The notes beneath the pieces were generated by a model, which was not told where the DNA came from, searched no databases, and worked only from the letters and a program-made list of their open reading frames with translations. DNA of 57,366 nucleotides, taken from Amaricoccus solimangrovi (GTDB lineage Bacteria; Pseudomonadota; Alphaproteobacteria; Rhodobacterales; Rhodobacteraceae). Numbering within the stretch: position 1 is the stretch's first letter; the number at the start of each line of letters is the position of its first letter. Below, piece after piece: positions 30,597-36,473 of this stretch. Location: positions 1 through 57,366 of the forward strand of contig NZ_VFRP01000026.1 of NCBI RefSeq assembly GCF_006385685.1. The letters run 5' to 3'. The position numbers and the translations under genes were made by a program.

Positions 30597-31289
30597 TCAG
30601 CGCGGGGGCAGGTCCGCGAGGATGGCCTCGGCGGCGGCGGCGGGGTCGGGGGCGGTCCAGATCGGACGGCCGACCACGATGTGATCGGCGCCCGCGGCGA
30701 TGGCCTCGGAGGGCGTCATCACCCGCTTCTGGTCGCCGAGGGGGGAGCCCGCCGGGCGGACGCCGGGGGTGACGATGAGCTTGCCCGCCGCCTCGGGCAG
30801 CGCACGGATCGCGGCGGCCTCGTGCGGCGAGGCGATCACGCCGTCGGCCCCGGCGCGGAAGGCGCGGGCGGCGCGCTCGGCCACCAGATCCTCGACGGCG
30901 CCCGGCACGATCAGCGCCTCGTCGAGATCGGCCCGGTCGAGCGCGGTCAGGATCGTCACCGCGAGGATCTTCGTGGGCGAGTTCCCCCGGCCCGCGACGG
31001 CGGCGCGCACCACATGCGGATCGCCGTGCACGGTCAGGAAATCGAGCCCGAAGGCGGCGAGGCCCCGCGTGGCCGCCTCGATCGTCGCCGGAATGTCGAA
31101 GAGCTTCATGTCGAGGAAGACGCGCTTGCCCTGGGCCTTGAGCTCGTTCGCCACGGCGAGCCCGCCGGTCGTCAGCATCCCGAGGCCGATCTTGTAGAAG
31201 ACGGCGCGCGAACCCAGCCGCTCGACGAGTTCCAGCGCGGCGGGGGCGTGGGCCAAGTCGAGGCCGACAATGAGGCGGTCGTCGGGCAT
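30597..31289 (-). CDS. pyrF: orotidine 5'-phosphate decarboxylase
   Basis: 230 residues from the ATG at 31289, with GGAG six bases upstream. It makes UMP from OMP, the last step of de novo pyrimidine synthesis. The catalytic signature is present: VFLDMKLFDIPATIEAA at about residues 56-72, holding the Lys-Asp network, plus the N-terminal IVGLDLAHAP and the C-terminal VTPGVRPAGSPLGDQKR and GADHIVVGRPI phosphate-binding loop. It sits directly downstream of the AT-rich island on the same strand; its own promoter should lie in 31290-31395 if the island is a late insertion. Confidence 0.93.
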   Translation of the reverse strand: MPDDRLIVGLDLAHAPAALELVERLGSRAVFYKIGLGMLTTGGLAVANELKAQGKRVFLDMKLFDIPATIEAATRGLAAFGLDFLTVHGDPHVVRAAVAGRGNSPTKILAVTILTALDRADLDEALIVPGAVEDLVAERAARAFRAGADGVIASPHEAAAIRALPEAAGKLIVTPGVRPAGSPLGDQKRVMTPSEAIAAGADHIVVGRPIWTAPDPAAAAEAILADLPPR

Positions 31290-31365
31290 GGGCGTCTCCG
31301 GGTGGGTGCGGCGCCGGGAATGGGGGAGGGGGTTAGGAGAGTCAAGAGTGGCAGGTGGCGCCGAG

Positions 31366-32298
31366 TTAAGGCACCAAAGCCGGGGGACGCAAATGGGACA
31401 GAAAATCATCAACAAATAAGCGGAAGGATGCAGGGCATTCTATAAAATCAACGATCAAACCGAAGACGTTACTTTTTCCGAAATTTACGCTACAGCGAAC
31501 CCTGTGCCCATTCTCCTTGAGGCGGTTACCGAATACTTTCGAAATAGAACTTAAAAATGAAGCAATGAAACTAGAAACCATCTTTCCGCGAATTACCGAC
31601 AACGGGCCATAAAGCCCAAGCTTCTTAGCAGACACCCTCAACTCGGAATCAATTCCTATTATTTGATCACGAAAGCCTTCGCGCCAACGGTTAAATCCGC
31701 TACGATCCAATACGGCTCCTTCATCGGTAAACTTGATCAAATCCGACAGACGCACTGCATCGACGTCAACGTCAACGTCAAGTTTACGGAGTGTGGCGCA
31801 GTAAAGGAATGGCATTGTGCAGGCCCGCACGAATACCATCGCGTCGCGATCAAAATTCGATAATAATTCCGCATGGAGCGGGTCATTCTTTCGAATTTTA
31901 AGATACCTGAATATAGTATCAGATACAACACGCCTATCTAAAGAGTAACTCTCCACCGAGTAATGATCCGTCGCGTAAACATTTTGGCCGTACTCATCTA
32001 TACCGATATACCTATCATGATCCCGATCAACTAAATATGCAATTTCGATAGCTTCGGGAAGGTCTGCGCGAACTCTGTCCGCTAGCCCGAGGACGCCCCC
32101 CTTGCCGTCGCATACAATCATTTTGAAATTTAATTCAGGCCAATTATCCTCTAAACATTTTGAAAAAAAATCCTCATCTTCTTCCCCTTCGCAAATAAAA
32201 TAACAATCGTACTTATTGGTCTCTTGAAGAGTACGCAATTTATGCCATGCCGCCGCAGGTGTCTTTCGCCGCTGCCTCAAAGTGTTGAGGTAGTTCAT
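31366..32298 (-). CDS. ariB: DUF4435 / Toprim-like nuclease, AriB-like (PARIS effector)
   Basis: 310 residues, AT-rich coding unlike its neighbours. Toprim-type catalytic residues are visible: Glu37 in YFICEGEEDEDFF and the Asp91-x-Asp93 pair in AYLVDRDHDRY, followed by ATDHYSVESY at 109-118, the hallmark of DUF4435. In PARIS systems AriB is held by the ATPase AriA and released as a nuclease toxin when a phage anti-restriction protein is sensed, causing growth arrest. The start overlaps the ATPase stop by four bases (ATGA). The last ten residues (SHLRPPALVP) are GC-rich, so the stop may be host-derived. Pairs of AAA plus DUF4435 outside PARIS also exist. Confidence 0.75.
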   Translation of the reverse strand: MNYLNTLRQRRKTPAAAWHKLRTLQETNKYDCYFICEGEEDEDFFSKCLEDNWPELNFKMIVCDGKGGVLGLADRVRADLPEAIEIAYLVDRDHDRYIGIDEYGQNVYATDHYSVESYSLDRRVVSDTIFRYLKIRKNDPLHAELLSNFDRDAMVFVRACTMPFLYCATLRKLDVDVDVDAVRLSDLIKFTDEGAVLDRSGFNRWREGFRDQIIGIDSELRVSAKKLGLYGPLSVIRGKMVSSFIASFLSSISKVFGNRLKENGHRVRCSVNFGKSNVFGLIVDFIECPASFRLFVDDFLSHLRPPALVP

Positions 32299-33745
32299 TT
32301 CATAGCTTTCATGTGCGAAAGCAGGTCCACGGCGTGTCGATCTAAGCTATTCTCGAAAATGAACGGAGAGTGAGTAACTGCGCCTATGAAGCGACACGTG
32401 GGCAGGCTGGATATGTCTTCCAAAAACCTCTGCTGCCAATCTACAGAAAGAGAAAGTTCTGGCTCATCTATTACCACATAATTATCTGAAACATCATCTA
32501 ACAGCATATGAGAAAATAGGCTTACTATTTGTTTCTCGCCCGAAGACAGGTCTTCCATTTCTACTGGGCGTCCGGAGCCATGTGAGATGTTTAATATGTA
32601 GTCTGACGAATTAAAATCAAACCTCTTTCCGAATAGATACGAATTACATACGTCCGTAAACAATGAAATTCTTGCTTCCTTGGCGGCAATATTTTTTCCA
32701 ACTTCCACGAGATACATAATGTAATGAGCAACATATTTTTCGTTTTCTTCGAGAGGGAGTGAAGTTCGAAGCTTTGTTACTACGTCGCGAACCTTCTGCT
32801 TGTCACCCAAGCTAAGGATTTTATTATCGATCTTCTCGAATACAGAGTCTAAATTTGACTCGGTAATCTCGATTGTCGAAATCTTTTCATATTGATTTGC
32901 TTCTGATCTAATTACATCGCGAAGATAACTGGTTGTTAGGCTATTAATTTGGGAAAGAGCATATGTCCTCAGCTCTTCCAATTGAGAGTAAATCTTACTC
33001 TTTACGTCCTGCATTCCGAACTGAACGAGTTCGATATACGTATTTGATTTAGATCCCTCGCGAAACCGTCTCGTCAGTTTGCGCTGCAATTCATCTTCTA
33101 TTTCAGGGAATACAGTCTTTAGATCCTTCTCAATGCGGCGATATGTGGGTAGATATAGTATTCTACCTAACAAGTTTTTATCTAGATAGGAGTCTGCCGC
33201 GTAGAGTGGATCTTTTGTCGAGTCGTTTGGGTCAGATTCGTTTCTGATTTCGAGCAGTAACTCCTCGGCGAAGTGCCTTGGAAGTCCTAACTTTTCGGAG
33301 ATATGATTAATCTGTCTTGTGTAGCTCGTTCCGCGATAGATAGATTCCTTATTTATAAGGTCGTTTGCTTTGACATAAAGGCTGTAGGGCAAATGTGCCA
33401 ATCTGCGGGCTACCCGTCTGGAGGATAGCGATTTGGTTATTTCTTCTCGGGTAAGCTTTATTTTTTTCCTATTGGTAAACGTCGCGCGGATGGAAACAAA
33501 ATCTTGATCGGCAAGTTTTTTCCACTGTCTACTTATGAAGTAGTAGATAATATTTAGAATGGTACTTTTGCCAATGCCGTTGTAACCGACGATTATTAAT
33601 CGATTGCCCTCGATCGGCAGTTCGATATCAACCTCTCCGAAAAGGCCGTTAATTTCAAAACTGCGAAAATTCAGCATGCTATAGCTACCTGCGTCCGAGA
33701 TCTGAAATATCGTCGTAGCGCCAGCTTGTTGCAACCCTAATGTCC
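31395..33745. other. AT-rich two-gene genomic island between pyrF and clpB
   Basis: Base composition drops abruptly from about 70% to well under 50% G+C over some 2.35 kb and recovers at both ends within a few tens of bases. The codon usage of both genes is full of A- and T-ending codons. The island holds exactly one complete operon. There is no integrase, transposase, tRNA or obvious direct repeat at the borders, so it probably arrived by homologous recombination in flanking genes or by illegitimate joining. Confidence 0.85.
32295..33677 (-). CDS. ariA: AAA/ABC-type ATPase, AriA-like (PARIS sensor)
   Basis: 460 residues from the ATG at 33677; a TTG at 33734 would add 19 residues but gives a non-family N-terminus. 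The protein is an SMC/OLD-like ATPase: MLNFRSFEINGLFGEV, Walker A GYNGIGKST at 31-39, a long helical insertion at about 190-330, the ABC signature LSSGEKQ at 377-383, Walker B VVIDEPE at 401-407, and the switch THSP at 435-438. In PARIS, AriA forms the scaffold that senses the phage trigger and holds AriB. It overlaps the DUF4435 gene by four bases, so both are made together. Size and order match PARIS; family assignment still needs a profile search. Confidence 0.75.
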   Translation of the reverse strand: MLNFRSFEINGLFGEVDIELPIEGNRLIIVGYNGIGKSTILNIIYYFISRQWKKLADQDFVSIRATFTNRKKIKLTREEITKSLSSRRVARRLAHLPYSLYVKANDLINKESIYRGTSYTRQINHISEKLGLPRHFAEELLLEIRNESDPNDSTKDPLYAADSYLDKNLLGRILYLPTYRRIEKDLKTVFPEIEDELQRKLTRRFREGSKSNTYIELVQFGMQDVKSKIYSQLEELRTYALSQINSLTTSYLRDVIRSEANQYEKISTIEITESNLDSVFEKIDNKILSLGDKQKVRDVVTKLRTSLPLEENEKYVAHYIMYLVEVGKNIAAKEARISLFTDVCNSYLFGKRFDFNSSDYILNISHGSGRPVEMEDLSSGEKQIVSLFSHMLLDDVSDNYVVIDEPELSLSVDWQQRFLEDISSLPTCRFIGAVTHSPFIFENSLDRHAVDLLSHMKAMK

Positions 33746-33770
33746 CGGTGGTTGCTCGGGGCGTGCAGTC

Positions 33771-33798
33771 CTTGTCCCCCGCCCCCTCCCTCCCTACC
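33771..33798 (+). promoter_or_regulatory. possible heat-shock (RpoH) promoter of clpB
   Basis: CTTG at 33771 and CCTACC at 33793 are separated by about 18 bases, resembling the alphaproteobacterial RpoH pattern CTTG-N17-CYTAT. It lies about 100 bases before the clpB start, in the short gap left between the island and clpB. The surrounding C-rich tract makes chance matches likely. Confidence 0.3.
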
Positions 33799-33872
33799 TA
33801 CTCCCCAAGGTCCCCCGCCGATCGCGCCGCTGACAGGGCGACACCCGGGGGATGCCGGAGAGGGAGACATTC

Positions 33873-36473
33873 ATGAACTTCGAGAAGTTCTCGGAACGGG
33901 CCCGCGGTTTCGTCCAGGCCGCGCAGACCATTGCGCTCAGGGAGGGCAACCAGCGCTTCATGCCCGAGCATCTGCTGAAGGCGCTGCTCGACGACGACCA
34001 GGGGCTCGCCAACAATCTCATCAAGGCCTCGGGCGGCGATCCCGCGATGGTGCGCGCCGCGAACGAGGCGGCGGTGAACAGGCTGCCGAAGGTCGAGGGC
34101 GGCGACGGGCAGCTTTATATCGACACGCAGACCGGCAAGGTGCTCGCCGAGGCGGAGAAGATCGCGACCCAGGCGAAGGACTCCTTCGTCACGGTCGAGC
34201 GGGTGCTGACCGCGCTCGCCATCGTCAAATCCGCCGCGAACGACGCGCTGAAGGCCGGGGGCGTGACGCCGAACGGGCTCAACAACGCGATCAACGATCT
34301 GCGCAAGGGCCGGACCGCCGATACCGCGAGCGCGGAGCAGGGCTATGACGCGCTGCGCAAGTATGCGCGCGACCTGACCGAGGCGGCGCGCGAGGGCAAG
34401 ATCGATCCGATCATCGGGCGGGACGAGGAGATCCGGCGCTCGATGCAGGTGCTGAGCCGGCGGACGAAGAACAACCCGGTGCTGATCGGCGAGCCCGGCG
34501 TCGGCAAGACGGCGATCGCCGAGGGGCTGGCGCTCAGGATCGTCAACGGCGACGTGCCGGAGAGTTTGCAGGACAAGAAGCTGCTGGCGCTCGACATGGG
34601 CGCGCTGATCGCCGGGGCGAAGTACCGCGGCGAGTTCGAGGAGCGGCTGAAGTCGGTGCTGACCGAGGTGACGGCGGCGGCGGGCGAGGTGATCCTCTTC
34701 ATCGACGAGATGCACACGCTGGTCGGCGCGGGCAAGGCGGAGGGGGCGATGGACGCCTCGAACCTCTTGAAGCCGGCGCTGGCGCGGGGCGAGCTGCATT
34801 GCGTCGGGGCGACGACGCTCGACGAGTATCGCAAGCATGTCGAGAAGGACGCGGCGCTGGCGCGGCGGTTCCAGCCGGTCTTCGTGAGCGAGCCGACGGT
34901 CGAGGACACGATCTCGATCCTGCGCGGCATCAAGGAGAAGTACGAGGTCCATCACGGCGTGCGGATCACCGATTCGGCGCTGGTGGCGGCGGCGACGCTG
35001 TCGCATCGCTACATCGCGGACCGGTTCCTGCCGGACAAGGCGATCGACCTGATGGACGAGGCGGCGAGCCGCTTGCGGATGGCGGTGGATTCGAAGCCGG
35101 AGGAGCTCGACGCGCTCGACCGCGAGATCCTGCAGAAGCAGATCGAGGCGGAGGCGCTGAAGGTCGAGAAGGACCAGGCGAGCCAGGACCGGCTGCAGAA
35201 GCTGCTGGTGGAGCTTTCGGCCTTGCAGGACCGCTCGGCGGAGATGACGGCGCAGTGGCAGGCCGAGCGCGACAAGATGAAGGGCGCGGCGGAGCTGAAG
35301 GAGAAGCTCGACGCGGCGCGGGTCGATCTCGAGAACGCGAAGCGGGTCGGCAATCTGGCCGAGGCCGGGCGGCTCTCCTACGGCGTGATCCCGCAGTTCG
35401 AGAAGGAGCTCGCGGAGGCCGAGGCGAAGGGCGGCGAGGCGATGGTCGAGGAGGCGGTGACTCCTGAGCAGATCGCGCAGGTCGTCGAGCGCTGGACCGG
35501 GATCCCGGTGGACCGGATGCTGGAGGGCGAGCGGGAGAAGCTGCTCCACATGGAGGCTTCGATCGGCAAGCGCGTCATCGGGCAGAAGGAGGCGGTGGTC
35601 GCCGTGTCCAATGCCGTGCGGCGGGCGCGGGCGGGGCTGAACGATCCGAACCGGCCGCTGGGCTCGTTCCTGTTCCTCGGGCCGACGGGGGTGGGCAAGA
35701 CGGAGCTCACCAAGGCGCTGGCGGCGTTCCTGTTCGACGACGACCAGGCGATGGTGCGCATCGACATGTCGGAATACATGGAGAAGCATTCCGTCGCCCG
35801 GCTGATCGGCGCGCCTCCGGGCTATGTCGGTTATGACGAGGGCGGCGTGCTGACGGAAGCCGTGCGGCGCAGGCCCTATCAGGTGATCCTGTTCGACGAG
35901 GTCGAGAAGGCGCATCCGGATGTGTTCAACGTGCTGTTGCAGGTGCTCGACGACGGGCGGCTGACCGACAGCCAGGGGCGCGTGGTCGATTTCAAGAACA
36001 CGCTCATCATCCTGACGTCGAACCTCGGCTCGCAGGCCTTGTCGGTGCTGCCCGAGGGCACGCCGGCGGAAGGGGCGCGGGATCAGGTGATGGCGGCGGT
36101 GCGCGCGCATTTCCGGCCGGAGTTCCTGAACCGGCTCGACGAGATCGTGCTGTTCGACCGGCTCTCCCGCGCGAACATGGACGGGATCGTGGAGATCCAG
36201 GTGGGGATCCTCGCGAAGCGGCTTGGCCAGCGGAACATCACGCTGGAGGTCTCCGACGAGGCGCGGACCTGGCTCGCGAACCGGGGCTACGATCCGGTCT
36301 ACGGCGCGCGGCCGCTGAAGCGGGTGATCCAGAGCGCATTGCAGAACCCGCTCGCGGAGAAGCTGCTCGCGGGCGAGATCCTCGATGGCGCGACGGTGCG
36401 CGTCGGCGCGGACAGCGAGGGGCTGACCTTCGGCGAGAGCGCCGAGACGAAGAAGCCCGCGGCGGTGCACTGA
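33873..36473 (+). CDS. clpB: ATP-dependent chaperone ClpB
   Basis: 866 residues from the ATG at 33873, with AGGGAG six bases upstream; the earlier in-frame ATG at 33852 lacks a site. ClpB is a hexameric disaggregase that works with DnaK. Domain order is complete: an N-terminal repeat domain beginning [12 protein letters not shown], the first AAA+ module with [13 protein letters not shown] near 206, the coiled-coil middle domain at about 400-530, and the second AAA+ module with [14 protein letters not shown] near 606 and the [13 protein letters not shown] Walker B. Its divergent neighbour was probably pyrF before the AT-rich island was inserted. Heat-shock control is likely but the promoter is uncertain. 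Confidence 0.95.

Follow-up and report, generated by a model that had tools for sequence, protein, structure and literature searches.

We describe a two-gene system in a stretch of 57,366 nucleotides from Amaricoccus solimangrovi (Alphaproteobacteria; assembly GCF_006385685.1, contig NZ_VFRP01000026.1), which as a whole is called the window. The pair, ariA and ariB, is very probably an intact anti-phage system of the PARIS type belonging to a divergent branch, in which AriA would be the sensor and AriB the tRNA-cutting effector. The two genes encode proteins of the PARIS families with the corresponding folds, keep their catalytic residues, are paired in the same way in most relatives, and form a patch of foreign composition between two housekeeping genes. 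As a member of PARIS the window copy is ordinary, yet it is far from the studied copy of E. coli. The features of the pair are:

32295..33677, minus strand: ariA, OLD/ABC-type ATPase, proposed sensor (ATG start, 460 residues)
31366..32298, minus strand: ariB, DUF4435 Toprim nuclease, proposed effector (310 residues)
32295..32298, minus strand: ATGA overlap of the ariA stop and the ariB start (identical 4-base overlap in the related loci L035, L036 and L037)

Assignment of the pair to PARIS

The published detection rule for two-gene PARIS sets 32 bits for AAA_15 or 27 for AAA_21 in the ATPase, and 27 bits for DUF4435 in its partner (PMC9122126; here and below, statements taken from papers cited by PMC number refer to the available parts of their text). 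For window AriA the scores are 51.8 bits (AAA_15) and 49.8 bits (AAA_21), and for AriB 37.9 bits (DUF4435). All family scores lie above the published thresholds and the pair therefore qualifies as PARIS. PARIS occurs either as two neighbouring genes or fused into one; here the two genes are adjacent, sharing the ATGA overlap, and the ATPase motifs and the acidic residues of the Toprim domain are intact, with D93 in place of E90 of E. coli.

Among the PADLOC models the best for the two proteins were those of AriA (7.1e-29) and AriB (1.9e-11). When AriA was searched with phmmer against the solved structures of the PDB the top match was AriA of 8ux9/8v45 (2.3e-12), and the AriA profile matched 8ux9 at 1.5e-25; we take 8ux9 and 8v45-8v49 to be the proteins of E. 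coli B185. The folds predicted for the single chains (confidence score pLDDT 93.5 for AriB and 86.6 for AriA) match PARIS chains best, above OLD, Septu and retron chains. Profiles, published rule, structure sequence search and predicted folds all rank AriA/AriB first, in agreement with the sequence-only reading of this DNA, which had named a putative PARIS-type system, and the profile search that it had proposed as a check gave no best match to non-PARIS families.

Motifs and catalytic residues

The motifs named in that earlier reading, namely Walker A, the ABC signature and E37, D91 and D93 of AriB, are all found at the positions it had given:

33561..33587, minus strand: AriA Walker A GYNGIGKST, residues 31-39 (N33, G34 and K37 invariant in 72 sequences)
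32529..32549, minus strand: AriA ABC signature LSSGEKQ, residues 377-383 (invariant in 72 sequences)
32457..32471, minus strand: AriA Walker B IDEPE, residues 403-407 (D404, E405, P406 and E407 invariant in 72 sequences)
32188..32190, minus strand: AriB Glu37, matching E26 of the E. coli protein in the profile alignment to 8ux9_A
32020..32028, minus strand: AriB Asp91 and Asp93, Toprim DxD (each kept in 83 of 83 pairs)
31582..31590, minus strand: AriB RGK motif, residues 237-239 (R in 82, G in 83 and K in 81 of 83)

E37 is kept in 82 of the 83 AriA-AriB pairs, the remaining row having a gap. D91 and D93 align with D88 and E90 of E. coli AriB, whose numbering was counted from the profile alignment; the 8v46 chain has Ala at position 90. 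In E. coli the E26A mutant of AriB gives no cleavage fragments, and K60 and K64 are required for defence (PMC12409363). K64 aligns with K66 of the window AriB, where K or R is found in 81 of 83 sequences, in a part of the alignment of low confidence. As judged from these alignments the catalytic residues of AriB are kept, while the tRNA-contact residues of the E. coli type are only partly kept.

Relatives and conserved pairing

A search of the genome_contigs set with the AriA alignment gave 251 relatives, and the best 80 of these were analysed as loci. An AriB-like gene, recognised by a profile built from nine AriBs, starts at most 150 bases downstream of AriA in 74 of the 80. The remaining six comprise two loci cut by a contig edge (in L073 part of AriB remains, and in L091 the contig ends inside ariA) and four without AriB in the available stretch (L043, L069, L084 and L098). 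On plasmids all eight loci opened, out of 21 matching records, have a DUF4435-annotated gene beside the ATPase, and two of 80 viral loci (L115 and L116) were analysed. Searches with AriB only returned no relative from genome_contigs or from plasmids. Within 61 genomes AriB relatives were present in two, the window's own and the congeneric G002, there on another contig; among 385 genomes of the class, nine (the window's own included) have DUF4435 at E <=0.001, and seven have it over the cut-off.

The 83 AriA-AriB pairs used throughout are the window, L027-L032, 74 of L035-L114, L115 and L116. The maximum-likelihood tree holds 86 AriA rows, with L073, L091 and L102 dropped and E. coli PARIS not included; the structure alignments (76 rows each) leave out L078, L081 and L087 for AriB and L070, L083, L087, L102 and L107 for AriA. 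The tree places the window in one branch with L035 and L036 (99/90), which L037 and L038 join next (100/100). L036, labelled Oceanospirillaceae, a gammaproteobacterial family, nests inside the window clade, as horizontal transfer would give. L035 is the G002 copy (L003/L035, JAUIHM010000010.1), which is like the window copy in clade, ATGA overlap and low GC, and unlike it in contig and surroundings and in sequence, with AriA 59% and AriB 33% identical.

Some loci show further arrangements. In the plasmid of Paraburkholderia sabiae (L028:3995-8270) the PARIS pair is directly followed by a second DUF4435-annotated gene, which reads as an ATPase-Toprim fusion, and a tyrosine integrase is near. 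Two Leptotrichia plasmids (L030:3309-4844 and L031:3300-4838) carry an AriA with an N-terminal extension, and upstream of it lie one gene of the helix-turn-helix type and one of the RelE/ParE family. The Escherichia phage vB_EcoM-813R9 (Peduoviridae, L202:1598-3701) has between its tail genes an ATPase matched by the AriA profile at 1.1e-37 and a hypothetical gene in which the stretch EGPDD is Toprim-like; this looks like another PARIS pair, and the hypothetical gene is not reached by the AriB profile. In the Fusobacterium phage Fnu1 (L203:2114-2890) a short gene resembles the C-terminal part of AriA and has no DUF4435-annotated neighbour.

Unequal divergence of AriA and AriB

AriB identity is lower than AriA identity in 3396 of 3403 comparisons among the 83 pairs, comparisons which are not independent of each other. 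Between the window and L035 and L036 AriA is 59% identical, AriB 33% and 36%. In the 30 pairs with AriA at 55-60% AriB ranges over 33.1-53.9%, and both values fall at the bottom of this range. Within AriB the middle part (residues 121-232) is only 19-25% identical to L035/L036, and the most variable part of AriA is residues 71-168 with 26-30%. The lower divergence of AriA may simply reflect a more constrained ATPase core.

Proposed mechanism

In E. coli the AriA ring holds AriB and, on binding anti-restriction proteins, frees it, and the AriB dimer nicks tRNA (PMC11455837; PMC12409363). By analogy, a ring of window AriA probably keeps the AriB Toprim nuclease inactive. AriA would bind a protein of the phage, probably one with an anti-restriction role such as Ocr, and would then release or activate AriB; freed AriB would dimerise and cut host tRNAs, and this would stop growth and abort the infection. 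The ring, the class of trigger, the tRNA cleavage and the abortive outcome are all carried over from E. coli PARIS. Since the branch is far from the E. coli copy, the trigger and the RNA that is cut may both differ. Given the strong divergence of the window AriB, and the generally lower conservation of AriB compared with AriA, we expect the RNA target or the cut site to differ from the tRNA-Lys/Thr/Asn set of E. coli; with the tRNA contacts only partly kept as well, neither trigger nor RNA target is transferable from that system.

There are type I restriction genes in the window genome, with hsdR and hsdM matches on contigs C49 and C79 and an additional N6-methylase match on C1. This is suggestive, and only that, of a restriction line for PARIS to guard, since of 14 control genomes 10 and 13 have matches to the same restriction families. 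The hsdR on C49 (L205, L206) is spread across two frames, of which one contains an internal TGA, and it may be broken or misassembled; the hsdR frame on C79 is open.

Genomic neighbourhood and arrival

The interval between the flanking genes is:

31290..33872, no strand: pyrF-clpB interval holding the pair (2583 bp)

On one side pyrF (OMPdecase match 2e-49) starts at 31289, and on the other clpB extends from 33873 onward with Clp_N and ClpB_D2-small domains; the pair has the same direction as pyrF and is divergent from clpB. These domain matches agree with the site between pyrF and clpB given in the sequence-only reading. Its AT-rich two-gene operon with ATGA overlap likewise agrees with the frames, with a GC content of 0.41 for ariA and 0.45 for ariB within GC-rich DNA, and with a GC at third codon positions of 0.44 and 0.46 against 0.94 for pyrF and clpB. 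The span 31366-33745 proposed there is right at its first base; its end is not kept, since ariA begins at 33677. A TTG at 33734 is a possible alternative start, and homologues start near the ATG. No further long frame beyond ariA and ariB is found in the interval. A consensus scan found neither a promoter-like site of the sigma-70 type between ariA and clpB nor a terminator between ariB and pyrF, with totals near those of shuffled sequences.

In relatives lacking the insert the distance between the starts of pyrF and clpB, projected from tblastn ends, is about 223 bp in G009 and about 166 in G008 (both of the same genus as the window), and about 235 in G011 (same family). The clpB start was obtained in 10 of 13 genomes searched. 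The order of the two genes is not universal: pyrF is about 5 kb off in G002, the gap is about 0.5-1.1 kb in G005, G007, G012 and G013, and the roughly 14 kb upstream of clpB in G006 and G010 gave no pyrF match. Comparison of the insert ends (31250-31470 with 33640-33880) gave no direct repeat of at least 9 bases and one 9-base inverted match of low complexity, and there is no tRNA at the site. Of the earlier description "recently acquired", the acquisition is supported by composition, by relatives without the insert and by the patchy distribution. A recent date is likely from composition; the G002 copy is similarly low in GC, and low GC may therefore persist for long.

Known systems and alternative explanations

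The system that the pair resembles most is PARIS of E. coli B185 (8ux9, 8v45-8v49; Rousset 2022, PMC9122126), with which it shares the AriA-AriB order, the ATPase and Toprim folds, the Walker and signature motifs and the catalytic acids (E26 as E37, D88 as D91, E90 as D93). Several differences and weak matches count against placing it there. In structure alignments the identity to E. coli PARIS is low, 10-13% for AriB and 15-22% for AriA, values which also bear out the word "divergent" used in the sequence-only reading. The window AriB has Glu39 at the position of R28, for which a D-loop contact is predicted in E. coli, and it lacks the stretch with K60, both in the low-confidence part of the alignment. 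The AriB profile match to 8ux9_A is weak (0.0017), a single-sequence search of the solved structures with AriB found no PARIS match, and among the PADLOC models many PtuA (Septu) profiles are also matched by AriA. In favour of PARIS, the identities of AriA and AriB are correlated (r 0.89, with none of 2000 permutations as high), but this correlation is inflated by shared ancestry.

The pair might be an OLD-type two-gene system working like Gabija or Septu, with a Toprim DNA nuclease that degrades phage DNA and not tRNA. GajA of OLD/Gabija, PtuA of Septu and the ATPases of retrons Eco7, Ec78 and Ec83 have the OLD/ABC-type core in common with AriA, and OLD and GajA also have the Toprim domain. 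We consider this improbable, since both window proteins score best with PARIS models and chains, those systems score below PARIS, and their partner genes, such as a helicase or HNH gene, do not adjoin the pair, whose neighbours are pyrF and clpB. As named systems, Gabija was rejected because ATPase and Toprim are in separate genes and no UvrD-like helicase is adjacent, and Septu because the partner is DUF4435 and not the HNH protein PtuB, the other neighbour being clpB. A retron with an OLD/PtuA effector was rejected on its neighbours, which are not a reverse transcriptase; non-coding RNA was not searched for. Less probable still is a decaying, silent remnant of horizontal transfer. The foreign composition and the lack of a promoter-like site in front of ariA would fit it; however, both frames are open and of full length, the catalytic residues are kept, the overlap is the same as in L035-L037, and the promoter scan was limited to sigma-70-type sites.

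An almost even chance is given to a PARIS-like system in which AriA senses a signal other than an anti-restriction protein and AriB cuts another RNA, an explanation that overlaps with the preferred one. The variable segment 71-168 of AriA against 59% identity for the whole protein, the low identity of AriB to its sisters and the partly kept tRNA contacts speak for it, but variability alone is no proof of changed specificity, and the lysine matching K64 is conserved as K or R. The reading of the pair as an intact, divergent PARIS system accommodates such differences in trigger and target.

PIN-carrying relatives and a possible docking segment

In three loci AriB is replaced by a small protein followed by a PIN-domain protein (PF01850, 1.7e-12 to 2.2e-15). 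These loci and the AriB segment which they bring into question are:

L084, 3962-6368: PIN-type locus, small protein of 182 residues
L098, 623-3020: PIN-type locus, small protein of 180 residues
L069, 3980-6095: PIN-type locus, small protein of 87 residues from the matching start
32206..32298, minus strand: AriB N-terminal segment, residues 1-31, proposed AriA-docking segment

When 3979 frames from 89 stretches were searched with a profile of the AriB N-terminus (82 rows), the three small proteins were matched at modest E-values (0.0024, 0.0092 and 0.019). The profile finds 82 of the 83 true AriBs at up to 0.0098, so one of the three small proteins scores worse than the weakest of these AriBs; no further frame comes nearer than E 0.55, and the three are exactly the genes adjoining ariA. 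Their AriAs form one clade (100/96) beside the AriB-carrying L048 (100/96), among AriB-carrying rows, and the swap therefore looks derived. We suggest only tentatively, and as somewhat less likely than not, that in this group of AriAs the nuclease end is exchangeable and that some 25-30 residues at the AriB N-terminus serve as a portable segment for docking to AriA. The window AriB would have retained this segment during the divergence of its nuclease body, and a derived branch would carry it on a small adapter, with a PIN ribonuclease in place of the Toprim protein. Residues 1-31 of the window AriB are 68% identical to both L035 and L036, against 33-36% for the whole protein. The idea is weakened by the wider sample, where among 62 pairs with AriA at 55-70% the segment averages 46.4% against 47.0% for whole AriB, without excess.

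Other observations concern the PIN partner itself. Its plasmid relatives, up to 48% identical, lie beside other antitoxin-like genes, and the PIN genes near ariA could thus partly be ordinary toxin-antitoxin pairs. The locus L043:3962-6002 was dropped as an adapter case, its PIN gene lying 227 bp downstream of ariA with no AriB-like start found; this gene is perhaps a separate toxin-antitoxin pair. A DUF4435 gene is present elsewhere in the genomes of L069 and L084, two of the four without AriB beside AriA. In searches of two phyla for more PIN-type loci (395 and 400 genomes; E <=1e-30 and 1e-40) only the starting genome matched each time, and the small protein alone had no match in plasmids or viral contigs.

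That OLD-ABC ATPases occur together with PIN, HNH and PD-(D/E)XK nucleases is already published (PMC12839542), and L069, L084 and L098, with an AriA-like ATPase and another nuclease, fit those systems; the window pair is unlike them in having the usual Toprim/DUF4435 partner. A toxin-antitoxin network connects such ATPases to several nucleases (PMC10440598), and in a review PARIS is listed as a fourth class that has been proposed for the OLD proteins (PMC10568477). The available parts of the literature examined, which did not include the two Nature structure papers, do not describe an adapter of this kind, and no priority is claimed.

Significance

Whether the list of tRNAs attacked is conserved or diversifying across PARIS systems is a question raised in the discussion of PMC12409363. 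The window copy and its sisters, with similar AriA and dissimilar AriB, are a natural test set for whether sensor or effector decides the outcome, and from the PIN-carrying relatives one could learn how a sensor hands over to an unrelated nuclease. If the docking idea is true, the window AriB would have diversified as an effector and would have an RNA target of its own, and different toxins could serve as the output of one kind of sensor.
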